Source: an uncultured Acetatifactor sp. | GTDB taxonomy: Bacteria; Bacillota; Clostridia; Lachnospirales; Lachnospiraceae | Length of the DNA: 64,000 bases | Direction of reading: 5' to 3' | NCBI GenBank assembly: GCA_947625675.1 | Contig: CANQPH010000001.1 | Location: 1 to 64,000 of the forward strand | Shown here: positions 951-47,507 of the stretch, one piece after another | How the letters are laid out: each line of letters begins with the position of its first letter | Position numbering within the stretch: the first letter of the stretch is position 1 | Notes under the pieces: model-generated | The model's input: the letters and a program-made list of their open reading frames with translations, nothing else | Told to the model about the DNA's origin: nothing | The model's database searches: none | Translations under genes and position numbers: made by a program

Positions 951-987
951 ATGCCGCCTGAACGGCGGCCGAATGAGAGGAAAAATG
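951..987 (+). repeat. Hairpin-RBS cassette, copy 1 (hemW)
   Basis: A 37-nt element ends exactly at the hemW start codon. It has a GCCGCC / GGCGGC inverted repeat around a short TGAA-type loop, then GAATGAGAGGAAAA and the ATG. The same layout recurs upstream of spoIIIAB, spoIIIAD, spoIIIAE, the Asp23 gene and ispA. The AGAGGAAA part serves as Shine-Dalgarno sequence. Confidence 0.8.
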
Positions 988-2109
988 CAGCTGGAGCTTT
1001 ATATTCATATTCCCTTCTGCGTCCGGAAATGCGGGTACTGTGATTTCCTGTCCGCTCCGGCCCCTTCCCAGGTGCAGGAGCGGTACATAAGGGCTCTTTT
1101 GCAGGAAATCAAAGGGAGGGGGCCGAAGACGGAGGACTGCGAAGTGGTCTCCGTGTTTTTCGGGGGAGGGACGCCTTCCGCAGTGCGAGCGGAGTGGATC
1201 GCAGAATTGATGGAGGAGATCCGCCGAAGCTATACCTTGTCGCCGGAGGCGGAGGTCACCGTGGAATGCAATCCCGGCACCCTGGACCGGCACAAGCTCT
1301 CCTGTTATCGGCAGGCCGGCGTCAACCGGCTGAGCATCGGGCTGCAGTCGGCGGATGACGGGGAGCTGGCCAGGCTGGGGCGGATCCATACCTACGGACA
1401 ATTCCTGGAAAGCTTCCGGCTGGCCAGGGAGGCGGGTTTTACCAATCTCAACGTGGATCTCATGAGCGCCCTTCCAGGTCAGAGTCTGACTTCCTATGAG
1501 GAGACCCTGCGAAAGGTGCTGGCCCTTGGGCCGGAGCACATTTCCGCCTACAGTCTGATCGTGGAGGAGGGCACCCCCTTCGCTTCCCTGGCGGAACAGG
1601 GGCGGCTGGATCTGCCGTCGGAGGAAGAGGAACGCCGCATGTATGAGCGGACCAGGGAGCTTCTGGGAGAAAAGGGATATCGCCGCTACGAGATTTCCAA
1701 CTATGCGCTTCCCGGCCGGGAATGCGTCCACAACAGGGGTTACTGGATCCGCAGGGCTTATCTGGGCTTCGGGATCGGAGCCGCTTCCCTTTGGAAGGAA
1801 GTTCGGTTTCGCAATACTTCCGATTTGGAAACATATATCGCCCGTCCCCTGGAATGTCGGGAGGAAATCCAGGTCCTTTCAACGGAGGAACAGATGGAGG
1901 AGTTTCTTTTTCTGGGGCTTCGGCTGACGGAAGGGATCGCCGATGGGGATTTTCGCCGAAAATTTCATAAAAGTCTGTCCGAGGTCTATGGCGGGGTGAT
2001 CCGCCGGAACATCCGGGACGGACTCCTGTCCTGGGAAGGGGAACGCCTGCGTCTGACGGACAGGGGCGTTGACGTGAGCAATTACGTGATGGCCCAGTTT
2101 TTGTTTTGA
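985..2109 (+). CDS. hemW: Heme chaperone HemW (radical SAM, formerly HemN-like)
   Basis: A 374-residue radical SAM protein. The iron-sulfur motif CxxxCxxC is at Cys12, Cys16 and Cys19 (IPFCVRKCGYCDF), followed by the FFGGGTPS glycine motif near residue 75 and SIGLQS near residue 125. The sequence around CGYCDF and the C-terminal HemN_C region fit HemW, which inserts heme into target proteins, rather than true coproporphyrinogen dehydrogenase. The start chosen is the ATG at 985, five bases after GAGAGG. An in-frame ATG at 919 would add 22 residues that merely translate the upstream hairpin cassette, and another at 973 lies inside it. The gene lies directly after lepA, as in many Firmicutes. 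Confidence 0.93.
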   Translation: MQLELYIHIPFCVRKCGYCDFLSAPAPSQVQERYIRALLQEIKGRGPKTEDCEVVSVFFGGGTPSAVRAEWIAELMEEIRRSYTLSPEAEVTVECNPGTLDRHKLSCYRQAGVNRLSIGLQSADDGELARLGRIHTYGQFLESFRLAREAGFTNLNVDLMSALPGQSLTSYEETLRKVLALGPEHISAYSLIVEEGTPFASLAEQGRLDLPSEEEERRMYERTRELLGEKGYRRYEISNYALPGRECVHNRGYWIRRAYLGFGIGAASLWKEVRFRNTSDLETYIARPLECREEIQVLSTEEQMEEFLFLGLRLTEGIADGDFRRKFHKSLSEVYGGVIRRNIRDGLLSWEGERLRLTDRGVDVSNYVMAQFLF

Positions 2110-2146
2110 ACCGCTTCGGGGATTCCCATATTTTCTGGAAAGGCAC

Positions 2147-2176
2147 TTGACAAGATCTTTCTTCATAGACTATGGT
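2147..2176 (+). promoter_or_regulatory. Candidate promoter of sigK
   Basis: TTGACA at 2147-2152 and TATGGT at 2171-2176 are 18 bases apart and lie 26 bases before the proposed TTG start. The -10 hexamer covers an in-frame ATG at 2172, which argues that this ATG is not the real start. This resembles a vegetative (sigma-A) promoter, whereas sigK is classically sigma-E dependent; the use of this site is inferred. Confidence 0.45.
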
Positions 2177-2201
2177 AAGAGTAATTCTACGGAGGTTATT
2201 T

Positions 2202-2834
2202 TTGAAGACATTTCAAAAACCCTTAACCTCTCGAGAAGAGACAGAATACATTCGTCTGTTGAAGGAAGGCACTCCGCAGGAGGCTGCACAGGCCAAAAGA
2301 ATCTTGATCGAGCGCAACTTGCGCCTGGTAGCCCATATCGCTCATAAATATACCAATTCCGGCGAAGAGCTGGAGGATTTGATTTCCATCGGCTGCATCG
2401 GCCTGATCAAGGCCGTGGATACTTTTGATTCCGGAAAGGGCAGGCTGGCCACTTATGCCTGCCGCTGCATTGACAACGAGCTTTTGATGCTGCTTCGTTC
2501 CAAAAAGAAGACATCGAAGGAGGTTTCTCTCTTTCAGTCCATCGGTCAGGACAAGGAGGGCAATGAAATCCGGCTTATGGACGTGATCGAGCAGCAGCAG
2601 ACAGACGTGGTGGAACGCATGGAGCTGGAGAATAACGTCCAACGGCTGTTTCGGCTGATGGATGATTGTCTTACGCCCAGGGAAAAGCAGATCATCGTTC
2701 TCCGTTACGGCCTGTACGGCCGGAAGGAGATCACCCAGAACGAAATCGGGGCCATGCTGGGGATATCCCGCAGCTATGTCTCCAGGATCGAGAAAAAGGC
2801 ATTGAACAAACTAAAGGAGAAATTTGCATGCTAA
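2202..2834 (+). CDS. sigK: RNA polymerase sporulation sigma factor SigK
   Basis: A 210-residue sigma-70 family factor that directs late mother-cell transcription (coat and cortex genes). Region 2 includes RNLRLVAHIAHKY, the DLISIGCIGLIKAVDTFD core-binding motif and a Y-A-C-R-C-I-D-N-E region; region 4 ends in a helix-turn-helix (ITQNEIGAMLGISRSYVSRIEKKAL). The N terminus KTFQKPLTSREE is typical of SigK. The start chosen is TTG at 2202, six bases after GGAGG at 2191-2195; an in-frame ATG at 2172 lies inside the -10 box. No obvious pro-sequence of 20 residues is visible: the protein starts almost at the mature conserved region. The gene is continuous and carries no skin-like intervening element. 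It overlaps pilT by 7 bases. Confidence 0.9.
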   Translation: MKTFQKPLTSREETEYIRLLKEGTPQEAAQAKRILIERNLRLVAHIAHKYTNSGEELEDLISIGCIGLIKAVDTFDSGKGRLATYACRCIDNELLMLLRSKKKTSKEVSLFQSIGQDKEGNEIRLMDVIEQQQTDVVERMELENNVQRLFRLMDDCLTPREKQIIVLRYGLYGRKEITQNEIGAMLGISRSYVSRIEKKALNKLKEKFAC

Positions 2835-3880
2835 ACATTGAAGAGGCTTTGATCAAGGCCAAGGAGGCCGGGGCCAGCGACGTGCACCTGACCGTGGGCA
2901 TCCCGCCCAGGATGCGGGTAAATGGGACGTTGTATCCCATGGAATATGACAGGATGCTTCCCAATGACACGCTGGAGGTGGCCAGGCACGTCATGAACGA
3001 GGTTCAGTGGGCGAGGTTCGAAGAGCGGGGGGAATATGACATGTCCTTTGCCATTCCCAGCTGCGGAAGGTTTCGGGTGAACGCCTATAAGCAAAGGGGT
3101 TCCGTGGCCATGGCTTTCCGCCTGGTGGGCACCAAGGTGCCTTCTCCTGAAGAATTGGGATTGCCGGAATCGGTGGTAAATCTGTATCAGAGAAAGAGGG
3201 GCCTGGTCCTGGTGACCGGCCCTACCGGCAGCGGCAAGTCCACCACCCTGGCGGCCATCATCGACAAGGTCAACAACAATCGGGACGCTCACGTGATCAC
3301 CCTAGAAGACCCCATCGAATATCTGCATTCCCACAGGAAATCCATGGTGAACCAACGGGAGATCGGCCTGGATTCCACCAATTACGCCACGGCCCTGCGG
3401 GCGGCCCTGCGGGAGGATCCGGACGTGATTTTGGTAGGGGAGATGAGGGATTACGAGACCATCAGCGTGGCCATCACGGCGGCGGAAACGGGGCATCTGG
3501 TTCTTTCCACCCTGCACACCATCGGAGCGGCCAGCACGGTGGACCGAATGATCGATGTTTTCCCGCCCCATCAGCAGCAGCAGATCCGGGTGCAACTTTC
3601 CAACGTCCTGGAGGCGGTGGTTTCCCAGCAGCTGCTTCCCAAAAAGGATGGGACAGGCCGGGTGGCCGCCTTCGAGGTGATGCACGTGAATCCGGCGGTG
3701 CGGAATCTGATTCGAGAGGGAAAGTCCCATCAGCTGGTCAGCGTCATGCAGACCAACCGGAAGCTGGGGATGATCACCATGGATGAGGCCATTGCCCAGC
3801 TGTATCGGGAAGGGTGCATCGAGAGGGATGTCGCCCTGCAGTTCGCCCAGGATCCCGACAACATGAAAAACAGAATCTGA
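2828..3880 (+). CDS. pilT: PilT-like type IV pilus retraction ATPase
   Basis: A 350-residue GspE/PilT-family secretion ATPase. After an N-terminal PAS-like domain (residues about 1-100) come Walker A GPTGSGKSTT near residue 131, the Asp box region ITLEDPIEY, Walker B DPDVILVGEMRD near 198 and the His box LVLSTLHT near 225. The AAETGHL and GEMRD forms match PilT rather than PilB. It would power pilus retraction at the cytoplasmic membrane, but no pilin or assembly genes are visible here. The start is ATG 2828 with AAAGGAG at 2813-2819; the stop codon of sigK is overlapped, so translational coupling is likely. A longer in-frame ORF begins upstream at 2666 within sigK and is rejected for lack of a ribosome-binding site. 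Confidence 0.88.
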   Translation: MLNIEEALIKAKEAGASDVHLTVGIPPRMRVNGTLYPMEYDRMLPNDTLEVARHVMNEVQWARFEERGEYDMSFAIPSCGRFRVNAYKQRGSVAMAFRLVGTKVPSPEELGLPESVVNLYQRKRGLVLVTGPTGSGKSTTLAAIIDKVNNNRDAHVITLEDPIEYLHSHRKSMVNQREIGLDSTNYATALRAALREDPDVILVGEMRDYETISVAITAAETGHLVLSTLHTIGAASTVDRMIDVFPPHQQQQIRVQLSNVLEAVVSQQLLPKKDGTGRVAAFEVMHVNPAVRNLIREGKSHQLVSVMQTNRKLGMITMDEAIAQLYREGCIERDVALQFAQDPDNMKNRI

Positions 3881-4094
3881 GTATCTATGGCTTTTCCCGC
3901 CGCAGGCCTTCCCTTTGGGGCAGGCGGCGGGGGAGGCTTCCAGGAAAATCTCCAGTTTTCCCGTATTTTTACCAAAGATAAGCGAAGAGAAAAAATGAAC
4001 CGTAAACAGGACTTTCCATGCGGCTTTTTTGGCGTAGGAAAAAAGTGCAGGAAAGAGCAGAAATGAGCAGAAAAAAAGAAGGAGGGATGGACGT

Positions 4095-5669
4095 ATGATC
4101 AGCACGATCATTGCCGGAGGCCTGCACGGGGTGGAGGCTTGTCTGGTGGAAGTGGAGGTGGATATTTCCACTGGGCTCCCGGGATTTTGCATGGTGGGCT
4201 CTCTGGGAGGAGAGGTGAAGGAGGCCAGGGAAAGGGTGCAGGTGGCCCTCAAAAACACGGGGATAGAGCTGCCGCCCCGGAAGATCACGGTGAACCTGGC
4301 CCCGGCCAATATTCGGAAGGAAGGGACGGCCTACGATCTGCCCATCGCCGTGGGCGTCATGACGTCTTCCGGTTATCTGACGGCGGCCCATGCGGAGGGC
4401 ACCCTGTTTCTCGGGGAGCTGGGTCTGGACGGGGAGATCAAGGGCGTTCGGGGAGTGCTGCCCATCGTGCGGGAGGCGGCGAGGCAGGGGCTCCATACTT
4501 GTATCGTTCCGGCGGAAAATGCTTTGGAAGGGGCCATGATCCCCGGCGTGAAGGTGAGGGGAGCGGAACGCTTCGGGCAGGTTCTGCGTTTCCTGAAGGC
4601 GGAGGAAAAAGAGAAGGACCTGATCCTGCCTGCGACGGAGGTGGACGGAGAAGAGTATTTAAGGATCCGGGGAGAAATGGACGGCCTGGATTTTGCGGAA
4701 GTGTGCGGACAGGAGGGGGCCAAACGGGCGGCGGAGATCGCTGCGGCGGGGTTTCACAGTTTATTGATGATCGGGCCGCCGGGGACGGGCAAAAGCATGA
4801 TCGCCAAGCGGATTCCGGGAATTCTGCCCCCGTTGTCCATGGAGGAAAGTCTGGAGGTTTCTTCCATATATAGCGTGGCGGGAAAATTGACCGGACAAGT
4901 TCCTTTGATCGTCAGCCGACCTTTTCAAAATCCTCATCATAGCATTTCCCAGGCTGCCTTGACCGGCGGGACGAGCCTGGCCCGGCCCGGCGTGATTTCC
5001 CTGGCCCATCGGGGCGTGCTGTTCCTGGACGAGCTCCCGGAATTCGACCGGACGGTTCTGGACAGCCTGCGGCAGCCCCTGGAGGATCGCAAAATCCACC
5101 TGGCCAGGGTACACAGCAACGTGACTTATCCGGCGGATTTCATGCTGGTGTGCGCCATGAATCCCTGTCCCTGCGGCTATTTTCCGGATCGGAACCGGTG
5201 CTCCTGTTCGGAAAGCCAGGTTCGCAGATATCTGGGCAGGGTGTCCGGCCCCATTTTGGACCGGATCGATCTCTGTGTGGAAATTTTACCCTTGAATATC
5301 TCTAAATATGCGGGCGGCGGGGGAGAATCCAGCGCAGATATCCGCAGCCGGGTCCTGGCCGCCAGGATGCGGCAGGAGGAGCGGTTCAAGCAGTCTCATT
5401 ATCGTTTCAATGCGGAAATCCGGGAGAAGGACATGGAGCGTTATTGTCCGTTGGGAGAGAAGCAGCGCAGGCTGATGGAGCGGGCCTATGACGCCATGGG
5501 GTTAAGCGCCAGAGGATATCACAGGACGCTGCGGGTGGCCAGGACCATTGCGGATCTGGCGGGCGAGGAGCAGATTCTGGAGGAACACCTGATGGAGGCC
5601 TTGAGCTTTCGGATGGCGGACAAGGCGTATTGGGGAAGGAGGGAAGACCTTGAAGCCACAGGTCTATGA
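4095..5669 (+). CDS. comM: YifB/ComM family Mg-chelatase-like AAA ATPase
   Basis: A 524-residue protein. The N-terminal ChlI-like domain (about residues 1-165, starting ISTIIAGGLHGVEACLVEVEVDISTGLP) is followed by an AAA core with Walker A GPPGTGKS at about 227-234, FRNPHHS-like FQNPHHSISQAALTGG, Walker B GVLFLDELPEF and a C-terminal Mg_chelatase_C domain. In Haemophilus ComM is a branch-migration helicase in transformation; in clostridia the role is inferred. The start ATG 4095 has GGAGGG at 4081-4086. It overlaps dprA by 20 bases, the usual pairing of two transformation or recombination genes. The preceding 214 bases hold GC-rich inverted repeats but no clear terminator. Confidence 0.9.
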   Translation: MISTIIAGGLHGVEACLVEVEVDISTGLPGFCMVGSLGGEVKEARERVQVALKNTGIELPPRKITVNLAPANIRKEGTAYDLPIAVGVMTSSGYLTAAHAEGTLFLGELGLDGEIKGVRGVLPIVREAARQGLHTCIVPAENALEGAMIPGVKVRGAERFGQVLRFLKAEEKEKDLILPATEVDGEEYLRIRGEMDGLDFAEVCGQEGAKRAAEIAAAGFHSLLMIGPPGTGKSMIAKRIPGILPPLSMEESLEVSSIYSVAGKLTGQVPLIVSRPFQNPHHSISQAALTGGTSLARPGVISLAHRGVLFLDELPEFDRTVLDSLRQPLEDRKIHLARVHSNVTYPADFMLVCAMNPCPCGYFPDRNRCSCSESQVRRYLGRVSGPILDRIDLCVEILPLNISKYAGGGGESSADIRSRVLAARMRQEERFKQSHYRFNAEIREKDMERYCPLGEKQRRLMERAYDAMGLSARGYHRTLRVARTIADLAGEEQILEEHLMEALSFRMADKAYWGRREDLEATGL

Positions 5670-6918
5670 GTATTGGCTGTACAGCATCCCCGGGGTGGGC
5701 TGGAAAACGGCGTCGAAGCTGCTGGAGGCCTTTGGTTCGGCGGAGGAAATCTATCGGGCGAAGGAGCAAAGGGTGGAGAGCCTTCTGAACGCTGCCCAGG
5801 CGGAAGGGTACCGGAAGCTGAAAAAAACCTGGAACCCTGGGGAGGAATATCATAAGCTCCAGGAAAAAGGGATTTTTTTCACTTCCTTCTGGGCGGAGGA
5901 TTATCCCGGAAACCTGAAACACATCCCGGATCCGCCCCTCGGCATTTTTTGGAAGGGAAGGCTGCCCCGGGAGGACGTTCCGGCGGTGGCCGTGATCGGT
6001 GCCAGGGAATGCTCGGAATATGGCAGATATGTGGCCCAGTCCCTGGGAAAAGCCCTGGCGGAGGCCGGGGTCCAGGTGGTCAGCGGGATGGCCCGGGGGA
6101 TTGACGGGATCAGCCAGGAGGCGGCCCTTTCGGAGGGCGGCGCATCCTTCGGTATCTTGGGAAGCGGCGTGGATATCTGTTATCCGGCCCAGAACCGGCC
6201 CCTGTATGAGCGGTTGCTGCAAAAGGGCGGGGTGCTCTCCCCTTATCCGCCCGGGACAAAGCCCGCCCCTTCTCTTTTCCCTCCCAGGAACCGCATTGTC
6301 AGCGGCCTGGCGGATGTGCTGGTGGTGGTGGAGGCCCGTTTAAAGAGCGGCACCTTGATCACCGTGGACATGGCCCTGGAACAGGGAAGGGAGGTCTACG
6401 TGGTGCCGGGCCGCCTGACGGATCGATTGAGCGATGGCTGCAACCGGCTATTGAAGCAAGGGGCGGGGATCTTGCTGTCGCCCCAGGATTTCTTGCAGGA
6501 GATCTGGCAGCTGTTCCCCGGGAAATGCGGGAGTGAACGGCGCACCGAAGATCCTGAAGGCGGCGGGAATGCGGGAAGAAGAGATACTACAGGAAGAGGA
6601 AAGAATTCCGAAAGAGCCAGGGACGTAGAAGAAGGCGAGAACGCAGGCAGAGACAAAATTGCCGAAGGAGGAGATGCCGCAGAGCCTGCAGAAATCGAGA
6701 GTTTCCGAAATGGAAAACGCTTCACTCCTCTGGAAGCCCGGGTGCTGGAGGCCCTGGACTTCTACCCCCGTTCCGTGGAACAGATCCGCACCCTGGTTCC
6801 GGGAGTCCCGGAATACCGCCAGACCCAGCAGATCCTGATGAAGTTGTGCCTGGAAGGGGAGGCGGTGCAGGCCGGTGCTGGGTATTTCTGTAAAAAGGCC
6901 CCATCCCGCCATCTGTGA
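5650..6918 (+). CDS. dprA: DNA processing protein DprA (Smf)
   Basis: A 422-residue single-strand DNA binding protein that loads RecA during natural transformation. An N-terminal helix-hairpin region (GVGWKTASKLLEAFGSAEEIY) leads to the Rossmann-like core: AVIGAREC, SGMARGIDGISQEAAL, FGILGSGVDICYP, FPPRNRIVSGLADVLVVVEA and SGTLITVDMALEQGREVYVVPG. A C-terminal winged-helix domain (about residues 358-415) closes the protein. Between them, residues about 296-355, lies a charged low-complexity linker rich in Gly, Arg, Glu and Asp, longer than in most DprA proteins. In the ARGID motif the usual A-H is S-Q. The start is TTG 5650 after AAGGAGGG; the gene overlaps comM and would be translationally coupled. 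Confidence 0.93.
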   Translation: MKPQVYEYWLYSIPGVGWKTASKLLEAFGSAEEIYRAKEQRVESLLNAAQAEGYRKLKKTWNPGEEYHKLQEKGIFFTSFWAEDYPGNLKHIPDPPLGIFWKGRLPREDVPAVAVIGARECSEYGRYVAQSLGKALAEAGVQVVSGMARGIDGISQEAALSEGGASFGILGSGVDICYPAQNRPLYERLLQKGGVLSPYPPGTKPAPSLFPPRNRIVSGLADVLVVVEARLKSGTLITVDMALEQGREVYVVPGRLTDRLSDGCNRLLKQGAGILLSPQDFLQEIWQLFPGKCGSERRTEDPEGGGNAGRRDTTGRGKNSERARDVEEGENAGRDKIAEGGDAAEPAEIESFRNGKRFTPLEARVLEALDFYPRSVEQIRTLVPGVPEYRQTQQILMKLCLEGEAVQAGAGYFCKKAPSRHL

Positions 6919-6954
6919 AGGTTGCTCAGGCTCCCAGGTTGCACCAGGATGCTT

Positions 6955-6970
6955 GTTACCATTCACGGTC
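6955..6970 (+). repeat. Left arm of palindromic intergenic element, cut off by the IS
   Basis: GTTACCATTCACGGTC lies immediately left of the insertion sequence. Its near-perfect reverse complement ggccGTGAATGGTAAC lies at 8857-8872, so the IS has split one palindrome. The last ten bases (6961-6970) are also the left copy of the target duplication. Confidence 0.75.
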
Positions 6971-7082
6971 CAATGTCATTAAGTTAACAGTGAGCAACTT
7001 GAAATGGTTAGATCCTTTTTATAGGGTGTAACCATTTTCGCTTTTTTAAAAAAAAGGGGTTGACAAATCCCCTATAATGTGC

Positions 7083-7167
7083 GGCCGCTCTCGCTACTGA
7101 TTGGATTTGAGAGGTGGCGAGAGCGGCCCTTGGATTAGGACGTATCAACATTCTTAATCCAAGGAGG
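7083..7167 (+). promoter_or_regulatory. Tandem hairpins, second hides the transposase RBS
   Basis: Stem 1 pairs 7083-7094 with 7117-7128 (12 perfect base pairs). Stem 2 pairs CCTTGGATTA at 7128-7137 with TAATCCAAGG at 7155-7164; its right arm covers most of the AAGGAGG ribosome-binding site at 7161-7167, ten bases before the ATG. Transcripts reading in from dprA would fold this stem. Insertion sequences of the IS4 group such as IS10 are known to use such RBS-masking structures against external transcription. Confidence 0.7.
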
Positions 7168-7177
7168 TAACTGCCAT

Positions 7178-36161: not shown

Positions 36162-36198
36162 ATGCCGCCTGATCGGCGGCGGAATGCGAGGAAACATG
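36162..36198 (+). repeat. Hairpin-RBS cassette, copy 2 (spoIIIAB)
   Basis: GCCGCC / GGCGGC around TGAT, then GGAATGCGAGGAAAC and the spoIIIAB ATG. Same length (37) as the copy before hemW, to which it is nearly identical. Confidence 0.85.
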
Positions 36199-37002: not shown

Positions 37003-37023
37003 AGGGGTTGGGAGGGCAAAGAG

Positions 37024-37060
37024 AGGCCGCCCGACCGGCGGCAGAATGCGAGGGAACATG
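37024..37060 (+). repeat. Hairpin-RBS cassette, copy 3 (spoIIIAD)
   Basis: GCCGCC CGAC CGGCGGC, then AGAATGCGAGGGAAC and the spoIIIAD ATG; 37 bases, aligning without gaps to copies 1 and 2. Confidence 0.85.
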
Positions 37061-37447
37061 TCGGAAATCGTCAGGGTGGGGCTTTTGGGAATTGCGGGAA
37101 TTCTCATCGCCATACAGCTTCGGTCCCACAGGCCGGAGTACAGCGCATATATCGGATTGGCGGTAGGGATCCTCATCCTGGGATATGCGCTCCGGGAATT
37201 CGAAGCGGTTCTGGGACAGCTGCGTCAGATTCAAGGATATCTTGGGGCGGGGGAGAATTATCTCGCCATATTGATGAAGGTCATCGGCATTACCTATATC
37301 TGTGAATTCAGCTCCGGCATCTGCAAGGACGCAGGTTACGGAACCGTGGCGGAGCAGATCGAGGTGTTGGGGAAGCTGTCGGTCATGGTGGCGGGCCTTC
37401 CCATTCTTTTTGCGGTAATCGAGCAGATTCAGTCGTTTATGAGGTAA
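37058..37447 (+). CDS. spoIIIAD: Stage III sporulation protein AD
   Basis: A 129-residue membrane protein. GLLGIAGILIAIQLRSHRPEYSAYIGLAVGILILGYAL and FSSGICKDAGYGTVAEQIEVLGKLSVM are conserved SpoIIIAD segments; four hydrophobic stretches are seen. It belongs to the mother-cell membrane part of the SpoIIIA channel. ATG 37058 lies at the cassette end; the in-frame ATG at 37046 is in the cassette itself. Confidence 0.94.
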   Translation: MSEIVRVGLLGIAGILIAIQLRSHRPEYSAYIGLAVGILILGYALREFEAVLGQLRQIQGYLGAGENYLAILMKVIGITYICEFSSGICKDAGYGTVAEQIEVLGKLSVMVAGLPILFAVIEQIQSFMR

Positions 37448-37448
37448 A

Positions 37449-37482
37449 AGACTGAAAATAGCCGTTCGGCTATTTCCAGTCT
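37449..37482 (+). other. Intercistronic hairpin between spoIIIAD and spoIIIAE
   Basis: AGACTG-AAAATAGCCG and CGGCTATTT-CCAGTCT form a stem of about 15 base pairs around a tight TT-type loop. There is no T run, so a role in mRNA stability or processing is more likely than termination. Confidence 0.6.
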
Positions 37483-37488
37483 ATTCAT

Positions 37489-37525
37489 ATGCCGCCCGAA
37501 GGGCGGCAGGATGAGAGGAAGGGTG
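37489..37525 (+). repeat. Hairpin-RBS cassette, copy 4 (spoIIIAE)
   Basis: GCCGCC CGAA GGGCGGC, then AGGATGAGAGGAAGG and GTG. By position the GTG at 37523-37525 corresponds to the start codon in the other copies; ATG 37529 follows six bases later in the same frame. Confidence 0.75.
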
Positions 37526-37528
37526 ACT

Positions 37529-38593
37529 ATGGCTTTTGATCTTGAAGGGGTGTGGAAGCAATACGGCCTGGATCAGCTGCAGGAGGGGCTGCGCACTCTG
37601 TTTCCGGATTATTCCATTTCTTTGCGGGAATTGTTGGACAAGGTTCTGGCGGGGGATGTGGCGGGACTGCTTCGAGGCTGCCTGCAGGCCGCCTTTGGGG
37701 AAGGCTTTTCCTGGTTCCTCGGTATGCGCAACGTCCTGATCTGGCTGTTGGTGCTGGGAATCGTGTCCGCAGTCATGACCCGTTTCATAGAGATTTTCGA
37801 CAAGCATCAGATTGCGGACATGGGCTTTTATTTCATGTACCTTTTGCTGACGGCGGTGCTTTTGCAGTGCTTCGGACAAGCGGCGGAGCTGACTAAGACA
37901 GCCATCGGAAGCGCCTGTGATTTTATTCGTCTCTTGATTCCCGCTTATCTGATGATCGTGGGGCTCTCCGGCGGCGCAGCGTCTGCGGGAATTGCGTATC
38001 AGTTGATTTTGCTCGCCATTTACGGCGTGGAGCATGTCCTGCTTTCCGTTTTGGTCCCCTTTGTCTACAGCTATTGCCTGCTGGCGGTGGTGAATGAACT
38101 TTGGACGGGGGGAAAGCTGGGGCTTCTCATGGATCTCCTGGGAAAGGGGATCAAAGCGGTGCTGAAGGCGGCGGTGGGGATCGTGACAGGATTGGGCGTC
38201 ATCCAGGCCGTCATCGCTCCCGTTCTGGACACCGTGAGAACCTCCGTCCTGCGGAAGACCATTTCCGTTATTCCGGGCCTGGGGGATGCGGCGGATGGAG
38301 TGGTGGAGCTGGTGCTGGGATCCGCCCTGGTGATCAAGAACAGCGTGGGAGTGGTGCTCCTGGCCTTGTTGTTGACGCTGTGCGCCGCACCCCTTCTGCA
38401 GATTTTTGGCACCGCCTGCCTGTTGAAAATGGCTGCGGCCTTGATGGGGATTGTCAGCGACCATAGGATCTCTTCCGTGACGGATCGAGTGGGGGAAGGC
38501 GGTTTCCTTTTGTTCCGTACTGCTGGGACGGCCTTGCTTCTTTTTCTGATTGCCATTGCCATGACGGCTGCGGCGGCGGGCAGGGGAGGATAA
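37529..38593 (+). CDS. spoIIIAE: Stage III sporulation protein AE
   Basis: A 354-residue polytopic protein of the SpoIIIA complex. About eight hydrophobic segments follow an amphipathic N terminus; LLRGCLQAAFGEGFSW, MGFYFMYLLLTAVLLQCF and GAASAGIAYQLILLAIYGVEHVLLSVLVP are family features. The start is uncertain: ATG 37529 is listed, but GTG 37523 sits where other copies of the hairpin-RBS cassette place their start codon. No long cleaved signal peptide is evident. It ends one base before spoIIIAF begins. Confidence 0.92.
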   Translation: MAFDLEGVWKQYGLDQLQEGLRTLFPDYSISLRELLDKVLAGDVAGLLRGCLQAAFGEGFSWFLGMRNVLIWLLVLGIVSAVMTRFIEIFDKHQIADMGFYFMYLLLTAVLLQCFGQAAELTKTAIGSACDFIRLLIPAYLMIVGLSGGAASAGIAYQLILLAIYGVEHVLLSVLVPFVYSYCLLAVVNELWTGGKLGLLMDLLGKGIKAVLKAAVGIVTGLGVIQAVIAPVLDTVRTSVLRKTISVIPGLGDAADGVVELVLGSALVIKNSVGVVLLALLLTLCAAPLLQIFGTACLLKMAAALMGIVSDHRISSVTDRVGEGGFLLFRTAGTALLLFLIAIAMTAAAAGRGG

Positions 38594-39666: not shown

Positions 39667-39756
39667 GGCATATATCCGAGGGCCTATTCATAGAATGAAG
39701 TAGTAAAAAGATACAAGCGGGGAGGAAGTCCCGCTTGGAGGAAAAGGGAGAATGCC

Positions 39757-40620: not shown

Positions 40621-40672
40621 GCCCCGCACCGCATAATTTTTGGAAAAAATATGTACAATACATAAAAATGTG

Positions 40673-40900
40673 GTATAATGTCCACGTTGGCAATGAGCAG
40701 TGCGAAAAAAGGTGTACGAAAATATGCGTCGTACCCGAAGGGCACGTAAGCATATTTTTGCACGCCTTTTTTCATAGGGCGAAGCCCGGTGAGCGAGGAA
40801 GCCGAAGGCTTGCGAGCTCGCACTGCGAGTTGATGGGGCAAAGCCTAGTGAGCAGCTCGCACTGCGAACGGAGAGAGAGCTTGCACTGCGAACGATAAAG
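40673..40900 (+). promoter_or_regulatory. Leader region of deoB: long hairpin and triple repeat
   Basis: TATAAT occurs near 40673 with a weak -35 box. A long hairpin follows: 40704-40727 (GAAAAAAGGTGT...AATATGC) pairs with 40750-40773 over 24 positions with three imperfect pairs, and inner CGT...CCC / GGG...ACG pairs cap it. Then three copies of AGCTYGCACTGCGA occur at 40815, 40854 and 40878. These fill most of the 298-base gap before deoB. No gene is seen. Confidence 0.6.
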
Positions 40901-40918
40901 GTTTTTGGAGGAAGAAAA

Positions 40919-42070
40919 ATGAAGCGGGTATTTTTGATCGTGCTGGACAGTTTCGGCATCGGCGCCATGCCGGATGCGGCTTCCTATGGGGACGGGGACG
41001 TCAATACCCTGAGGAGCGTGTCGGGAAGCCCTTATTTTCACGTGCCGAATCTGGGCAGGCTGGGACTGTTTCACATTGACGGGGTGACCGCAGGAGAGAG
41101 GACAGGAGAGCCCGCCGGAGCCTATGCCCGTATGACGGAGGCCTCCAAAGGAAAAGATACCACCATCGGACACTGGGAGATTGCCGGAATTTATTCCGGC
41201 AGTCCCCTTCCCGTATATCCGGAAGGATTCCCGGAAGAGGTGCTGGCGGAGTTCACCCGGCAGACCGGCAGGGGCGTGCTGTGCAACAAACCCTATTCCG
41301 GCACGGAGGTGATCAAGGACTATGGGGACGCCCATCTCGCCACCGGGGATTTGATCGTGTATACCTCTGCGGACAGCGTCTTCCAGATCGCCGCCCACGA
41401 GGAAAAGGTGCCGGTGGAGGAGTTATACCGCTATTGCCGGATCGCCAGGAACATCCTGCAGGGAGAGCATGGAGTGGGCCGGGTGATCGCCAGGCCTTTT
41501 ACAGGGGAAAGCGGTCATTTCGTGAGAACTTCCAGAAGGCATGATTTTTCCCTGCTGCCGCCTTCCGTCACCATGCTGGATCAGCTGGCGGAGTCGGGGA
41601 AGGACGTGATCGCCGTGGGGAAGATCCGGGACATCTTTGCCGAGAAGGGGATCACGGAATCCGTCTCCACCGCAGGCAACGAGGACGGGATCAACCGCAC
41701 CCTGGAATATCTGGACAAGGATTTCGAGGGCTTGTGCTTCGTCAATCTGGTGGATTATGACATGCTGTACGGCCATCGCAATGACGTGGACGGCTATGCC
41801 AGGGCCCTGACTTATTTTGACGGACGTCTCCCGGAGATCCTGGCGAAGCTGGGGCCCGAGGACATCCTGATGCTCACGGCGGATCACGGCTGCGACCCGG
41901 GATATACCGTGTCCACCGATCATTCCCGGGAATACACGCCCTTTTTGATGGTCGGCGCAGGCGTGCGCCCGGGCAACCTGGGAACGAGGAAGACCTTTGC
42001 GGATATCGGCGCCACCGTGCTGCAATATTTTGGAATACAGCCTGCCTTCCGGGGAACGGGAATGCTGTGA
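40919..42070 (+). CDS. deoB: Phosphopentomutase
   Basis: A 383-residue alkaline-phosphatase-superfamily enzyme that converts (deoxy)ribose 1-phosphate to the 5-phosphate in nucleoside salvage. Metal and substrate motifs are LDSFGIGAMPDAASYGD at residue 8, GKDTTIGHWEIAG near 79-91 with the activated Thr, VDYDMLYGHRNDV and LTADHGCDPGY. Length is typical. ATG 40919 follows TTTTTGGAGGAAGA. The gene is an insertion relative to the usual spoIIIA-to-asp23 order. Confidence 0.96.
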   Translation: MKRVFLIVLDSFGIGAMPDAASYGDGDVNTLRSVSGSPYFHVPNLGRLGLFHIDGVTAGERTGEPAGAYARMTEASKGKDTTIGHWEIAGIYSGSPLPVYPEGFPEEVLAEFTRQTGRGVLCNKPYSGTEVIKDYGDAHLATGDLIVYTSADSVFQIAAHEEKVPVEELYRYCRIARNILQGEHGVGRVIARPFTGESGHFVRTSRRHDFSLLPPSVTMLDQLAESGKDVIAVGKIRDIFAEKGITESVSTAGNEDGINRTLEYLDKDFEGLCFVNLVDYDMLYGHRNDVDGYARALTYFDGRLPEILAKLGPEDILMLTADHGCDPGYTVSTDHSREYTPFLMVGAGVRPGNLGTRKTFADIGATVLQYFGIQPAFRGTGML

Positions 42071-42071
42071 G

Positions 42072-42091
42072 GCCGCTGGCTGAACTGTTAC
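42072..42091 (+). repeat. Half copy of the topA-codY palindrome
   Basis: GCCGCTGGCTGAACTGTTAC matches the right arm of the 17904-18064 element (GGCGGCTGGCTGAACTGTTGC) with few changes, but no left arm is present here. Confidence 0.65.
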
Positions 42092-42118
42092 AAAACAATA
42101 GATTCGGAGGAGAGATTC

Positions 42119-43714
42119 GTGCCAAATTACACAGAAGAAATCAGGCGGAGAAGGACCTTCGCCATCATATCTCATCCCGATGCGGGGAAGACGACCCTGA
42201 CGGAAAAATTCCTGCTGTACGGGGGAGCCATCAACCTGGCGGGGAGCGTGAAGGGCAAGGCCACGGCCCGGCATGCGGTTTCCGACTGGATGGAGATCGA
42301 GAAGGAGAGAGGTATTTCCGTAACTTCCTCCGTGCTGCAGTTTGAATATGACGGATACTGTATCAATATTCTGGACACTCCCGGACACCAGGATTTCTCG
42401 GAGGATACTTACCGGACCCTGATGGCGGCGGATTCCGCCGTCATGGTCATCGACGCCTCCAAGGGGGTGGAGGCCCAGACCAGGAAGCTGTTCAAGGTCT
42501 GCGTCATGCGCCGGATCCCCATTTTCACCTTTATCAACAAGCTGGACCGGGACGCCAACGACACCTTTGATTTGTTGGACGAGATTGAGAAGGAGCTTGG
42601 GATCGCCACTTGTCCGGTGAACTGGCCCATCGGTTCCGGCAAGGGCTTCCGGGGCGTGTATGATCGGAACCGGAAATGCGTCATCACGTATTCCGACACG
42701 GAGAAGGGAACCAAAGAGGGACATGCCCAGGAGATTCCCATCGAGGAGGAAGCCGCTCTGCGGACGGCCTTGGGAGATCCGGCGGTGGACAAGCTCCTGG
42801 AGGAAACGGAACTTCTGGACGGGGCCAGTGCGGAATTCGATTTGGAATTGGTGCGGGCCGGTATGCTGACTCCCGTTTTCTTCGGCTCCGCCCTGACCAA
42901 CTTCGGCGTGGAAATTTTCCTGAAATATTTCCTGGAAATGGCCACCACGCCCCTGCCCAGGAAGGCGGATATCGGCATGGTGGATCCCATGACGGCGGAT
43001 TTCAGCGCCTTCGTGTTCAAAATCCAGGCCAACATGAACAAGGCCCACAGGGACAGGATCGCCTTTATGCGGATCTGTTCCGGCAAATATGACGCCAGCA
43101 TGGAGGTGCGCCATGTCCAGGGGGGCAAGGTGATGCGTCTGTCCCAGCCCCAGCAGATCATGGCGGACGAGAGGAAGATCCTGAGCGAGGCTTATGCCGG
43201 GGATATTATCGGTGTTTTTGACCCGGGGATCTTTTCCATCGGCGACACCCTCTGCGCCCCCAAGGATAAAATTTGCTATGAGGGGATCCCCACCTTTGCG
43301 CCGGAGCATTTCGCCCGGGTGCGCCAGATGGACACCATGAAGCGGAAACAGTTCGTGAAGGGGATCCAGCAGATCGCCCAGGAGGGCGCCATCCAGATCT
43401 TCCAGGAGTTCAACACCGGCATGGAGGAGATCATCGTGGGCGTGGTGGGGGTTCTGCAGTTCGACGTGCTGAAATATCGTCTGGAAAACGAGTATAACGT
43501 GGAGATCCGGCTGGAGAACCTGCCCTATGAGCACATCCGCTGGATCGAGAACAAGGACGAGGTGGATTTGGAACGGCTGACGGGCACCTCGGACATGAAA
43601 AAGGTGAAGGACATGAAGGGGAATCCGCTGCTCTTGTTCGTCAATCCCTGGAGCATCGGCATGACCCTGGACCGCAACAAGGGGCTGGTGCTTGCGGAAT
43701 TCGGCCGGAATTAA
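42119..43714 (+). CDS. prfC: Peptide chain release factor 3
   Basis: A 531-residue translational GTPase that removes RF1/RF2 after termination. G1 is SHPDAGKTTLTEKFLLYGGAI near residue 18, G2 covers ERGISVTSSVLQF, G3 is DTPGHQDFSEDTYRTL and G4 FINKLDRD. C-terminal motifs such as FAPEHFARVRQMD and GVVGVLQFDVLKYRLENEYNV separate it from EF-G. The start is GTG 42119 with GGAGGAGA at 42107-42114. Confidence 0.96.
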   Translation: MPNYTEEIRRRRTFAIISHPDAGKTTLTEKFLLYGGAINLAGSVKGKATARHAVSDWMEIEKERGISVTSSVLQFEYDGYCINILDTPGHQDFSEDTYRTLMAADSAVMVIDASKGVEAQTRKLFKVCVMRRIPIFTFINKLDRDANDTFDLLDEIEKELGIATCPVNWPIGSGKGFRGVYDRNRKCVITYSDTEKGTKEGHAQEIPIEEEAALRTALGDPAVDKLLEETELLDGASAEFDLELVRAGMLTPVFFGSALTNFGVEIFLKYFLEMATTPLPRKADIGMVDPMTADFSAFVFKIQANMNKAHRDRIAFMRICSGKYDASMEVRHVQGGKVMRLSQPQQIMADERKILSEAYAGDIIGVFDPGIFSIGDTLCAPKDKICYEGIPTFAPEHFARVRQMDTMKRKQFVKGIQQIAQEGAIQIFQEFNTGMEEIIVGVVGVLQFDVLKYRLENEYNVEIRLENLPYEHIRWIENKDEVDLERLTGTSDMKKVKDMKGNPLLLFVNPWSIGMTLDRNKGLVLAEFGRN

Positions 43715-43729
43715 GCGATTGGGAGTTTT

Positions 43730-45043
43730 ATGGGGAAAAAAGTATCTTGGAAGCTGAAACGAGCGTTGTTTTTGGCGGTTCTGCTGGTTGGGACGTGCCT
43801 GTTGACAAGCTGCGGAGAAGGGGAGCTGAAGGATGCGGGCGCGGCTTCCCAGCAGCCGGAAACGGGGACGGAGAGCTTGGCCGAAAGCCTGGAAAAGGCA
43901 GAGCGGGGAACCGAGAGAGCGGAAGGAGAGCAGCCAAGCCTTGGAGAATCCGTCACCGCAGAATCGGACTCCGGGGAGACTGCGGCAGAGGAAGGGCCTC
44001 CTTATTTTGAAGAAGAGGGAGACACCCTTTATGCCTATGGCACTTTGTCCGAAACGGAGCAGCTTTGGTACCAGGATGTCAACAGAATCCTGGGAAACAT
44101 GCTGACGGAGCAGGCGCTGGGGCAGGAGGGCCTGGAGCAGGGGCTGACGGAGGAAAATCTGGATAAAATTTTTCAGTGCGTGCTCAATGACCATCCGGAG
44201 TATTTCTACGTGGAGGGCTATACTTATACCAAATTCACCCGTTTGAATGGTCTGGTGAAGCTGACTTTTTCCGGGGTATACAGCTGCAGCCGCACGCAGG
44301 CGGAGGTTCGGATGCGGCAGATCCGTCTGGCGGCGGAGCAAATCCTTGGCGGAGCGCCGGAAGGAATGGACGATTATGAGAAAGTGAAGTTCGTCTATGA
44401 AACCCTGGTCGCCAACACGGAATACGACCTGGAGGCTTCGGACAATCAGAATATATATTCCGTGTTCGTAAACAGGGCCTCGGTCTGTCAGGGTTATGCC
44501 AAGGCCACCCAATATCTTTTGAACAGGATGGGAATTCCCTGTACCATGGTGTTGGGAACGGTGGAGACCGGGGAAGGGCACGCCTGGAACCTGGTGCAGG
44601 TGGACGAAGAGTATTATTACGTGGATACTACCTGGGGAGACGCTTCCTATCGGACGGAAGGAGAGCTTTCGGAATACATGCCCGAGATCAATTATGATTA
44701 TCTGTGCGTGAACACGGAACAGCTGCTCCGTACCCATGTGCCGGACGACCTGATCCCGCTGCCGGACTGCGAGAGTCTGGAGGCCAATTATTATGTCCGG
44801 GAGGGCACCTATTTTACGTCCTGGGACGAAGAAAAGCTTCAGCAGGCGTTTGAAGGGGCGAAGGAACGGGGGATGAAGGACGTGACCCTGAAATGTTCGG
44901 ACGATGCGGTCTATGAAGAAATGGAAGGGAAACTGATAGAGGACCAGGGGATTTTTCAATATTTGGAAAATGCGGAGGGAAAAATCGCCTATGTCAGAAA
45001 TGAGAAACAGTTATCCTTGACTTTCTGGGTGACAAATCGCTGA
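43730..45043 (+). CDS. Transglutaminase-like lipoprotein
   Basis: A 437-residue exported protein. The N terminus has a Lys/Arg-rich start, a hydrophobic core and a lipobox LLTSC with Cys at about 28, so it is probably anchored to the membrane exterior. A Ser/Glu-rich linker (about 30-95) follows. The transglutaminase-like core has Cys in ASVCQGYAKATQYLL (about 255), His in GHAWNLVQVDEEYYYVDTTWGD (about 284) and the third residue Asp nearby, the complete Cys-His-Asp triad. Such proteins often act as wall-associated peptidases or crosslinkers; the substrate is unknown. ATG 43730 lies 15 bases after prfC. Confidence 0.85.
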   Translation: MGKKVSWKLKRALFLAVLLVGTCLLTSCGEGELKDAGAASQQPETGTESLAESLEKAERGTERAEGEQPSLGESVTAESDSGETAAEEGPPYFEEEGDTLYAYGTLSETEQLWYQDVNRILGNMLTEQALGQEGLEQGLTEENLDKIFQCVLNDHPEYFYVEGYTYTKFTRLNGLVKLTFSGVYSCSRTQAEVRMRQIRLAAEQILGGAPEGMDDYEKVKFVYETLVANTEYDLEASDNQNIYSVFVNRASVCQGYAKATQYLLNRMGIPCTMVLGTVETGEGHAWNLVQVDEEYYYVDTTWGDASYRTEGELSEYMPEINYDYLCVNTEQLLRTHVPDDLIPLPDCESLEANYYVREGTYFTSWDEEKLQQAFEGAKERGMKDVTLKCSDDAVYEEMEGKLIEDQGIFQYLENAEGKIAYVRNEKQLSLTFWVTNR

Positions 45044-45079
45044 ATTAGTGGTATACTATGCAAAAGGATTGCAGATTAA

Positions 45080-45117
45080 ATACCGCTTGATGGGCGGAAG
45101 AATGCGAGGAAAGAATG
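45080..45117 (+). repeat. Hairpin-RBS cassette, copy 5 (Asp23 gene)
   Basis: ACCGC TTGATG GGCGG, then AAGAATGCGAGGAAAGA and the ATG. It has one extra base near the end and a weaker stem than the other copies, but the AATGCGAGGAAA core is the same. Confidence 0.7.
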
Positions 45118-45501
45118 GAAAAAGAGATGGAAAATGGCACGACGGTGCTGGAGGGAGAAGAAAGCATCGGTACGGTGAAGATTGCGGACGACGTGGTGGC
45201 CCTGATCGCCGCCCTGGCTGCCACCGAGGTGAAGGGCGTGTCTTCTTTGGCAGGAAATCTGACCAATGAATTGATGAGCAAGGTGGGCGCCAAGAATTTG
45301 ACCAAAGGAGTCAAGGTAGAGGTGCAGGAAGGAAACGTGACGGTGGACCTGGCCCTTACCATGGAGTATGGCTTCCACATCCCGGAGACCTGCCAGAAGG
45401 TGCAGTCCAAGGTGAAGGCCGCCGTGGAAAACATGACGGGGCTCACCTGCAGCGACGTGAATATCCGCATCGCCGGCGTGAATATGAAAAAGGATGAATA
45501 A
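45115..45501 (+). CDS. Asp23/Gls24 family envelope protein
   Basis: A 128-residue small protein. The Asp23 fold is clear in [52 protein letters not shown] and [27 protein letters not shown]. This is the YqhY-type member found before nusB in most Firmicutes, where it influences acetyl-CoA carboxylase activity in Bacillus; the role here is inferred. ATG 45115 ends the cassette; a second ATG at 45124 is possible. nusB follows two bases later. Confidence 0.92.
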
Positions 45502-45503
45502 AG

Positions 45504-45914
45504 ATGAAGTCTATGAATAGGCACGAGCAGAGAGAGCAGATTTTCCGGCTTTTGTTCCGAGTGGATTTTTTCCCCCTGGAAGAGCTTCCGGAACAGGTGA
45601 AGCTGTTCTTTGAAGAGGAAGAATTGGCGGACATTTCCCAGAAGGATATGGACTACATCGTTCACAAATACGAAGCGATTTTGGAAAAGCTTCCGGAAAT
45701 CGACGCCAGGCTGAGCGAGAAGGCGGAGGGCTGGAAGCTGGATCGCATGGGCAAGGCGGAGCTGACGGTGCTGCGCCTCGGCCTGTATGAGATGCTGTAT
45801 GACGATCAGATCCCGGTGGGCGTGGCCATTAACGAGGCGGTGGAGATTGCCAAGACCTTCGGACAGGATAATTCCGGTGGGTTCGTGAATGCGGTTCTGG
45901 CAAAATTCGTGTAG
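45504..45914 (+). CDS. nusB: Transcription antitermination protein NusB
   Basis: A 136-residue all-helical protein that binds boxA RNA with NusE/S10 for rRNA antitermination. [18 protein letters not shown] at the start and [54 protein letters not shown] at the end are diagnostic. Start ATG 45504 (or 45513) has AAGGATGA upstream. The folD gene that usually comes next is missing. Confidence 0.95.
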
Positions 45915-45923
45915 GGTTTGGTG

Positions 45924-47150
45924 ATGGCGATTCGTAAAAATGTATATACGGTTTCACAAGTGAATGCTTATGTCAAAAATATGTTCACGCAGGATTATAT
46001 CTGCCGGTCTCTTCTCGTAAAGGGGGAAGTCAGCAACTGCAAATATCATTCTTCTGGACATATTTATTTTACTTTGAAGGATGCCGGGGGAGCCATTAAC
46101 TGCGTGATGTTCGCCGGTTACCGCAGCGGCCTTTCCTTCCGGTTGTTGGAAGGGCAGCAGGTGATTGCGGGCGGAACTCTGGACGTCTATGAAAGGGATG
46201 GAAAATACCAGCTCTATGTCAAACAGATCCTTCTGGACGGGGCAGGGCGGCTCTACGAGCAGTTCGAACAGTTGAAACGGGAGCTGGAGGAAATGGGCAT
46301 GTTTTCTCCGGAGTACAAGCGGCCCATTCCCAAGTATATCAGGACTTTGGGCGTGGTGACTGCGGATACCGGGGCGGCGGTGCGGGACATCATTCAGATC
46401 ACCAGGCGGCGGAATCCTTATGTGCAGATCCTTTTGTACCCGGCCATCGTCCAGGGAGAGACTGCGGCGGAAAGTATCGTGAAGGGAAGCCATGCCCTGG
46501 AACGGAAGGGCGTGGACGTGATGATCGTGGGCCGGGGCGGCGGCTCCATGGAGGATCTCTGGGCCTTCAATGAGCGGATCGTGGCCCAGGCCGCCTTTGA
46601 CTGCAGCGTCCCCATCATATCCGCCGTGGGGCATGAGACGGACACCACCATCCTGGATTACGTGGCGGATCTGAGGGCTCCTACCCCGTCTGCGGCGGCG
46701 GAGCTGGCGGTGGCGGACATCCGGCTGGTTTTTGAACGGTTCCAGGGTTATGGAGAGCATCTGCGGAGACTCATGAACCGGCAGATTTCCGTCCAGAGAG
46801 GTCGTCTCGCCCAATGCGAGAGACATCTTAAGCTGTTAAGTCCCTCGGGCAGGATCCGGGAGCAGAAAATGCGTTGTGCGCAGATGGAGGACAGGCTATC
46901 CCTCTTGATGGAGCGGATTCTGGAGGACAGGCGGCACAGGCTGGATCTTTATATTGAGAAGATGAAGGGATTGTCCCCTCTGGAAAAATTGAGCAGCGGG
47001 TATTCCTACGTGGAGGATGACGCCGGGCGGAATATTCGTTCCATAGAACAGGTGTGCCCCGGAGATCGTCTGAAAATCCGGGTGCGGGACGGAAGGATCG
47101 ATGCGGTGGCGACCGGTACCGGAAAAGTGGAGGACGCAGGAAATGAGTGA
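45924..47150 (+). CDS. xseA: Exodeoxyribonuclease VII large subunit
   Basis: A 408-residue nuclease subunit. The N-terminal OB fold (LLVKGEVSNCKYHSSGHIYFTLKD) is followed by the catalytic domain with LGVVTADTGAAVRDI, GRGGGSMEDLWAFNE near 200 and ISAVGHETDTTILDYVADLRAPTPSAAAELA. ATG 45924 is seven bases past AGGG; TTG 45918 and GTG 45921 in frame are alternatives. It overlaps xseB by eight bases. Confidence 0.95.
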   Translation: MAIRKNVYTVSQVNAYVKNMFTQDYICRSLLVKGEVSNCKYHSSGHIYFTLKDAGGAINCVMFAGYRSGLSFRLLEGQQVIAGGTLDVYERDGKYQLYVKQILLDGAGRLYEQFEQLKRELEEMGMFSPEYKRPIPKYIRTLGVVTADTGAAVRDIIQITRRRNPYVQILLYPAIVQGETAAESIVKGSHALERKGVDVMIVGRGGGSMEDLWAFNERIVAQAAFDCSVPIISAVGHETDTTILDYVADLRAPTPSAAAELAVADIRLVFERFQGYGEHLRRLMNRQISVQRGRLAQCERHLKLLSPSGRIREQKMRCAQMEDRLSLLMERILEDRRHRLDLYIEKMKGLSPLEKLSSGYSYVEDDAGRNIRSIEQVCPGDRLKIRVRDGRIDAVATGTGKVEDAGNE

Positions 47151-47412
47151 ATTGAGAGAGAACGAGACGAGGATGCGGGAAACCGGACAGGCGGATGAAA
47201 TGCGGGAGACCGGAAAGCTGACCCTGGAGGATCATTTTGAAAAGCTGGAGCAGACCATCGGACGCCTGGAGGAAGAGGATATTTCCCTGGAGGAAGCCTT
47301 TCGGGCCTATAGCGAGGGGATGAGGCTGCTGAAGGAATGCAATGACCAGATCGACCGGGTGGAAAAGAAGGTGCTGAAGCTGACGGAAGAGGGAACACTG
47401 GAAGAACTATAG
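47143..47412 (+). CDS. xseB: Exodeoxyribonuclease VII small subunit
   Basis: An 89-residue helical subunit. LTLEDHFEKLEQTIGRLEEEDISLEEAFRAYSEGMRLLKECNDQIDRVEKKVLKL is the canonical XseB core; about 28 additional hydrophilic residues lie at its N terminus. ATG 47143 overlaps the xseA stop and follows GGAGGACGCAGGAA. It completes ExoVII. Confidence 0.93.
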   Translation: MSELRENETRMRETGQADEMRETGKLTLEDHFEKLEQTIGRLEEEDISLEEAFRAYSEGMRLLKECNDQIDRVEKKVLKLTEEGTLEEL

Positions 47413-47470
47413 CCATAAAACACATTGGAAGAGATCCGGAGGAAAGTCCTGAAAAGTCTCTTTGAGTCAG

Positions 47471-47507
47471 GTGCCGTCCGAGCGGCGGCGGAATGCGAGG
47501 AAACATG
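47471..47507 (+). repeat. Hairpin-RBS cassette, copy 6 (ispA)
   Basis: GTGCCGTCCGAGCGGCGGCG followed by GAATGCGAGGAAAC and the ispA ATG; 37 bases, aligned without gaps to copy 2. Confidence 0.82.

Follow-up and report, generated by a model that had tools for sequence, protein, structure and literature searches.

Why should six genes as different as hemW, three spoIIIA genes, an Asp23-family gene and ispA begin directly behind almost the same 37 nucleotides? The question is raised by the first 64,000 nucleotides (positions 1 to 64,000 of the forward strand) of contig CANQPH010000001.1 from assembly GCA_947625675.1 of an uncultured Acetatifactor sp. of the Lachnospiraceae, a stretch to which we refer in its entirety as the window. 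A previous interpretation made without database searches, here called the sequence-only reading, had described a hairpin plus ribosome-binding-site (RBS) cassette at these genes and had proposed either a spreading translation-initiation element or a common RNA-level control. Our analysis reveals that the six cassettes are the 3' end of a longer repeat of about 105 nt with three hairpins (H1, H2 and H3), of which they represent H3 and a tail, RGAATGNGAGGAA. This Lachnospiraceae repeat is, in our assessment, probably a small, non-autonomous mobile element that enters the gap between the Shine-Dalgarno (SD) sequence and the start codon of its target genes.

Six cassettes at six start codons

All six sites lie on the + strand where the sequence-only reading had placed them, and each comprises the H3 hairpin, the SD-bearing tail and the start codon: at 951-987 before hemW, at 36162-36198 before spoIIIAB and directly 3' of the spoIIIAA stop codon, at 37024-37060 before spoIIIAD, at 37489-37525 before spoIIIAE, at 45080-45117 before the Asp23-family gene, and at 47471-47507 before ispA. 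The gene identities given earlier agree with the Pfam families found (Radical_SAM plus HemN_C, Spore_III_AB, SpoIIIAC/AD, Spore_III_AE, Asp23 and polyprenyl_synt, respectively). As described, the cassette measures 37 nt including the ATG in the four copies beginning at 951, 36162, 37024 and 47471, while the spoIIIAE copy ends in GTG and the Asp23 copy carries a single extra base ahead of its ATG. The description of the stem as GCCGCC...GGCGGC is exact for four of the six copies but not for those before the Asp23-family gene (ACCGCT...GGGCGGA) and ispA (GCCGTC...GGCGGC), and the proposed tail GAATGCGAGGAAAC occurs exactly in two (36182 and 47491) but not in the other four. Variation is consequently not confined to the loop, and the compensating bases that had been claimed are not convincing among the cassette copies. 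We considered and rejected the GAATG within the tail as a start codon; it is out of frame in the Asp23 copy, and for both Asp23 and IspA the alignment with orthologous proteins begins at the second ATG.

Start-codon placement across the source genome

The source assembly comprises 3.1 Mb in 101 contigs, is 94% complete, and has the window at the start of contig 1. We searched it with a covariance model of H3 plus tail, termed R1, from which the start codon was excluded and whose training set of 31 copies included all six window sites. At least 69 distinct copies reach 25 bits or more, a number that is a lower bound because R1 scored 150 of 3874 first-look candidates. At these 69 places, an ATG follows the end of the model within 0-2 nt in 66 cases and a GTG in one, and neither is present in two; the ATG rate in a window of the same size farther downstream is 9%. 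The covariance search suggested by the sequence-only reading finds the cassette ending at a start codon in 67 of 69 copies. The core pattern GCCGCCYGANCGGCGGC has 29 exact copies in this genome and therefore cannot be ascribed to chance; with up to three mismatches allowed, its excess over the reversed control is modest (140+142 versus 97+114). Searched by itself, a 13-nt pattern of the tail gives 73 occurrences versus 11 for the reversed control.

When sites were selected by their tail only, those with identical upstream sequence were merged and identical copies counted as one. Among the resulting 71 distinct sites, 49 combine hairpin and ATG, three have only a (weak) hairpin, six have only the ATG, five of these resembling decayed cassettes, and 13 have neither. 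For other genomes of our survey (designated by G numbers, and individual loci by L numbers), the corresponding counts, in the same order, are 7/3/3/8 in G016, 15/3/5/0 in G012 and 10/4/5/1 in G013, the sets of G016 and G012 including also loci picked by R1. Twenty target proteins were compared with NCBIfam, and those that passed the curated cut-off belong to, among others, the families RecJ, HisD, NagA, Dxr, TsaB-RimI, TrmB, DeoC, YfcE, PatB and a PknB-type kinase. The earlier view that the genes have nothing in common can be extended accordingly, as no common function is apparent among the targets identified through Pfam and NCBIfam. A separate arrangement was seen at L255 (contig 16 of G328), where three H3 cores lie about 100 nt apart and the last one alone stands directly before an ATG.

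The cassette as part of a three-hairpin element

Full-length copies are built in the order H1, an inverted repeat starting with AGATTG; H2; a linker; H3 (GCCG-loop-CGGC); and the tail. H1 consists of AGATTGGAAATAGCC-GGCTATTTCCAATCT or of an AT-only form and is present upstream of many copies, and the H2 pattern (GGGATTTGTGC-GCACAAAGTCCC) was found at 24 places in the source genome and at none in the reversed control. Over H1, H2 and linker, the consensus is matched at 71 of 71 positions by three copies, one of them before hisD and the other two before frames of only 30 and 2 codons, and two further copies, before recJ and an aldo/keto reductase gene, agree at 70 of 71. Other copies are shortened at their 5' end and retain H3 and the tail. 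Five contigs of the source genome end within the element, as would be expected because it is a repeat. The ends of a full-length copy (5' AGATTG... and 3' ...GAGGAA) are, by reading, non-complementary, each of the three hairpins being local; as to a target-site duplication, both junctions of the element usually end in AA, likewise by reading, and the SD-like sequences of its two sides differ from each other in most copies.

Parts of the longer element precede three of the six window copies, all on the + strand. The hemW copy has its H2 hairpin (GGGATTTGTGC...GCACAAAGTCCC) at 914-940, supported by the fold and by a match to the H2 pattern at 916-940 with one mismatch; the spoIIIAE copy has H1 at 37449-37482 and is missing H2; and the ispA copy has a remnant of the 3' arm of H2 and of the linker at 47453-47470, with a local alignment score to the element consensus of 30 versus a maximum of 26 for shuffled sequence. 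Upstream of the other three, the sequence scores no higher in this alignment than shuffled sequence does. Folded in context, three full-length copies have z-scores of -6.2, -6.3 and -4.5, with strong H1 and H2 hairpins, and the four window copies that were folded have values of -3.9 (spoIIIAE, 37440-37555), -2.4 (hemW), -1.5 (spoIIIAB) and -0.2 (ispA). Rfam matches in the window are limited to tRNAs, with no family for the element, and a search of seven loci with long copies gave three matches, all far under the gathering score.

A probable older Shine-Dalgarno sequence ahead of the element

Among the 16 long copies with a readable H1 start, 14 have an SD-like 4-mer within the 12 nt before H1, versus 51 of 256 (20%) in the control, and the mean duplex energy with the anti-SD sequence at this position is -8.0 versus -3.9 kcal/mol (p 2.5e-6). 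The element, which brings an SD of its own, is thus placed between the ATG and an SD that is probably older. By eye, the 4-mer also precedes H1 in all eight of the full-length copies that were listed for G016, G182 and G248. H1 repeats that lead into an SD, an ATG and an open reading frame (ORF) have an SD motif upstream in 31 of 35 cases versus 33 of 86 other H1 readings, a comparison that pools loci gathered by different searches. In the window, GAGGTAAA at 37441-37448 (+) overlaps the spoIIIAD stop codon and adjoins the H1 of the spoIIIAE copy; we read it as the native SD of spoIIIAE, now stranded. Two mutually similar relatives that lack the element, L201 and L202, possess an SD, TAGGAGGG, that also overlaps the spoIIIAD stop codon. 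The SD-like stretches TTGGGAGGGCAAAGAG at 37008-37023 (+), adjoining the 5' side of the spoIIIAD cassette, and GGAGGAAAG at 47438-47446 (+), ahead of the ispA copy, were identified by reading and may be further older SDs.

The duplex energy of the tail is -8.4 to -9.7 kcal/mol versus -5.6 kcal/mol for GAGGAAA in a T context. The simplest reading of these sequences would be that the element was inserted between SD and ATG: the upstream SD is presumably the native one of the gene, and the SD in the tail is probably the one that is used. The assertion of the sequence-only reading that the cassette constitutes the RBS is consistent with the ATG-proximal SD in the tail and with the Asp23 and IspA orthologues aligning from that very ATG; translation from it is predicted from sequence.

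These data lend themselves to the following model. The element would insert into the few bases between the SD of a gene and its start codon. Its tail, whose pairing to the 16S rRNA is possibly two-part (AGAA and GAGG), would then supply a replacement SD near the ATG, so that translation of the gene could continue even though its old SD becomes stranded upstream. Each insertion would thereby create a new SD-ATG gap that the next element may enter behind the first, which would give rise to stacks. Old copies would eventually lose H1 and H2, and H3 and the tail would persist as the RBS of the gene.

Stacked units in mixed order

H1 is common to other units with different hairpin-SD ends, namely AGATGGGAGCAA (family 2) and GAAATGAGGTGTAA (family 3), and a family 5 unit with the end TGCAGGGGTATAA was found upstream of H1 units; these three families were recorded among the individual loci that we retrieved. 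The units, including the one described above (family 1), are arranged head to tail, each beginning after the SD of the preceding one, with the junction at SD+AA. The junctions listed, which cover units with an upstream tail matching any of four hand-written patterns, number 11: three from family 5 to family 2, two from family 2 to family 1, one from family 5 to family 1 in the source genome, two from family 2 to family 2, one from family 3 to family 3, and two without a recognised second tail. Mixed stacks of this kind argue for insertion and not for tandem duplication of one unit. In the window itself, three tandem 41-nt units occupy 52159-52281, the last ending in GTGATATGCAGGGGTATAA, the 3' end of family 5.

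Distribution and orthologous loci

The cassette is absent from all orthologous loci compared for five of the window genes: spoIIIAB (0/10), spoIIIAD (0/10), spoIIIAE (0/11), the Asp23-family gene (0/38) and ispA (0/34); hemW lies outside this comparison, and the ortholog loci L197 and L222 share sequence. A search with SpoIIIAE had found eleven loci at 45-58% identity. This absence points to a lineage-specific gain. R1 matches (E <=0.1) are present in 22 of 24 other genomes of the genus and absent from two, and outside the genus 5 of the 16 genomes searched have weak matches (E 0.004 to 0.1). The core pattern was found in 16 of 299 Lachnospiraceae genomes including the source, with 1 to 75 copies, versus one match in total for the reversed control. 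A set of 398 genomes of the phylum includes five Lachnospiraceae, the source among them; the other 393 yielded one match (in G729) and the reversed control two, so that outside the family the core is at background level within the phylum. H1 repeats, whose palindromic places were each counted once, occur in 10 of the 299 family genomes, most of them in G182 (41) and G000 (14), and in several genomes with a single H1 the context looks unrelated.

Might the cassette simply be a native RBS style shared through selection, with no spreading element behind it? Its duplex energies make the tail plausible as a strong SD, but the five loci that are identical at 70-71 of 71 upstream positions strongly disfavor such an explanation. 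The patchy presence in 16 of 299 family genomes and the lack of an R1 match in two genomes of the same genus also speak against it, and we regard it as highly improbable. The proposal of a spreading translation-initiation element, by contrast, agrees with the near-identical long copies at different genes, with the orthologues devoid of the cassette, and with the placement at start codons.

Certain sites are shared between species. With different loops, the cassette is kept at prfA in G012, G013 and G248, at an etf-like gene in G015 and G017, and at further genes, gyrB and prmA among them, in two or three genomes each, as judged by a hairpin score of at least 6 plus a start codon, with gene names taken from reading translated starts. 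Old insertions can hence be retained. An orthologous gene without assigned function, with a TTG start as read, keeps the cassette with differing loops in L390 (G012), L158 (G013) and L185 (G005).

A protein or regulatory RNA that binds H3 and the tail and tunes the translation of a regulon would offer another explanation for such conserved sites, at which stem and tail are kept and loops differ (prfA, the etf-like gene and the TTG-start gene). It gains some weight from the excess of 5-bp stems at tail-selected sites (17 of 40 versus 13.0 expected, p 0.02) and from the stem changes in 59 ungapped copies of the 69, of which 16 keep and 9 break pairing. Yet the identified targets share no function, the cassette is missing from the orthologues compared for five window genes, and covariation of the inner pairs is not significant (p 0.13 in 68 strings, which hold GCCG/CGGC by pattern, so that inner pairs alone were tested). 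Moreover, regulation alone would leave the near-identical full-length copies unexplained. H3 is a conserved inverted repeat with weak covariation, a signal too weak to prove an RNA structure; neither a conserved regulon nor the RNA-binding protein envisaged by the sequence-only reading finds direct support, and we judge control at the RNA level to be an improbable origin of the cassettes.

How the element might move

We infer that the element moves and is not copied by homologous recombination. Matches to Y1_Tnp (PF01797) were not found in G000, G182, G012 and G013, with one each in G016 and G248 (the source assembly being 94% complete), and RVT_1 (PF00078) was not found in G000, G182, G248 and G012 and is present in G013 and G016. 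A Y1 transposase and a reverse transcriptase accordingly find no support as movers, neither having been found in the high-copy genomes G000 and G182. The latter finding, the SD-like sequences on both sides of the element and the joining of units at SD+AA would all suit a propagation of the repeats through recombination at short SD-like matches, in which SD-element-SD fragments recombine at a target SD with no dedicated recombinase. The shared matches are very short, though, tail-like matches within genes are unoccupied, and other classes of recombinases were not searched; this route appears rather unlikely to us, if less so than control at the RNA level.

Insertion by a mobile repeat remains our preferred interpretation, and several observations weigh against it. 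The enzyme was not found in the searches for Y1_Tnp and RVT_1, other recombinases not having been searched. Two R1 copies are without a start codon: L081, with an altered tail, and L121, with ATA where ATG is expected. At 5 of the 66 ATGs the frame is shorter than 40 codons, although in four of these cases a longer one begins 5-40 nt further on, which at L063 follows a second cassette. The SD 4-mer is absent before H1 in 2 of the 16 long copies, the upstream SD of L011 in the source genome is part of another unit, and at 3 of the 11 stack junctions the search detected no hairpin ahead of the upstream tail. The flanking SD could in principle belong to the element, though its sequence varies. 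The sites common to several species fit old, retained insertions but also regulation, and presence and absence were compared among relatives that share at best about 70% XseA identity, not between a pair of strains.

Searches of phages and plasmids by blastn, with a long copy and with a family 2 array, gave no match. The tail pattern occurs 24 times in 23 stretches of viral contigs, with an ATG within 1-5 nt in four. L292 and L298 from such contigs fit the whole H3 core, one of them before an ATG, and were set aside as coding chance in view of their nearly stop-free frames. H1 was seen in four viral stretches, in L488 with a family 3-like unit and in the other three with another repeat; in the IMG/VR contigs L487, L489 and L490, a different repeat is built on GATTGAAAATNNNNATTTTCAATC, some copies of which lie near GAATGCTCT-like sequence.

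Comparison with known repeats

REP and BIME sequences are short dispersed DNA hairpins present in many copies and moved by RAYT (IS200-like) transposases. The Lachnospiraceae element is also a short dispersed hairpin, and differs in that Y1_Tnp was not found in four of its host genomes, as detailed above; REPs, moreover, are not known to occupy start codons. The REP2 repeats of Neisseria reportedly supply an RBS near the start codon. Compared by description only, REP2/CREN is reported to be tied to host-cell contact and occurs in a different phylum, and we know of no three-hairpin build, insertion into the SD-ATG gap or stacking for it. Most sets of the TAACTGA repeats in marine Beggiatoaceae precede the start codons of genes that share no evident function; the largest class ends 1 nt before the start codon, and a translational role has been proposed (PMC4679880). 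These repeats are tandem heptamers, and only about 10% of their repeat regions also have an SD, whereas the Lachnospiraceae element itself supplies the SD. Miniature inverted-repeat transposable elements (MITEs), BOX, RUP, SPRITE and Correia elements are described as small interspersed repeats able to alter expression, with BOX, RUP and SPRITE over-represented between convergent genes (PMC3049150). The present element differs from these interspersed repeats in its position at start codons, in its SD, and in ends that are not mutual inverted repeats; full-length copies lack the terminal inverted repeats joining both ends of a MITE. Among the top-ranked results from the open-licence PMC literature, we found no description of stacking repeats that insert between an SD and the start codon and take the place of the RBS.

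Other repeats in the window

Two further sets of repeats were noted. A 184-nt hairpin-rich tandem repeat at 56055-56489, with two copies 96% alike and a partial third, lies between ORFs on opposite strands. Two large ORFs on the + strand (58546-60313 and 62055-63512) have 78-nt and 126-nt repeats in common, are 87% alike over their first 300 nt and look like repeat-rich paralogues.

Significance

Small dispersed repeats are already known; what seems new here, by the literature searched, is their apparent entry between the SD and the start codon, the replacement of the RBS, and the stacking. We tentatively suggest, with less confidence than we attach to the mobile repeat itself, that the RBS may be the niche of an element superfamily of gut Lachnospiraceae whose members would recognise the SD-start codon gap, enter it with an SD of their own and create the next target, so that leaders grow as ordered mixed stacks, the mover being a system not yet described. 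If this is true, some mechanism must locate translation starts in DNA or RNA, the stacks would record the order of insertions, and a mobile element could rebuild the 5' leaders of genes stepwise while their expression is kept.

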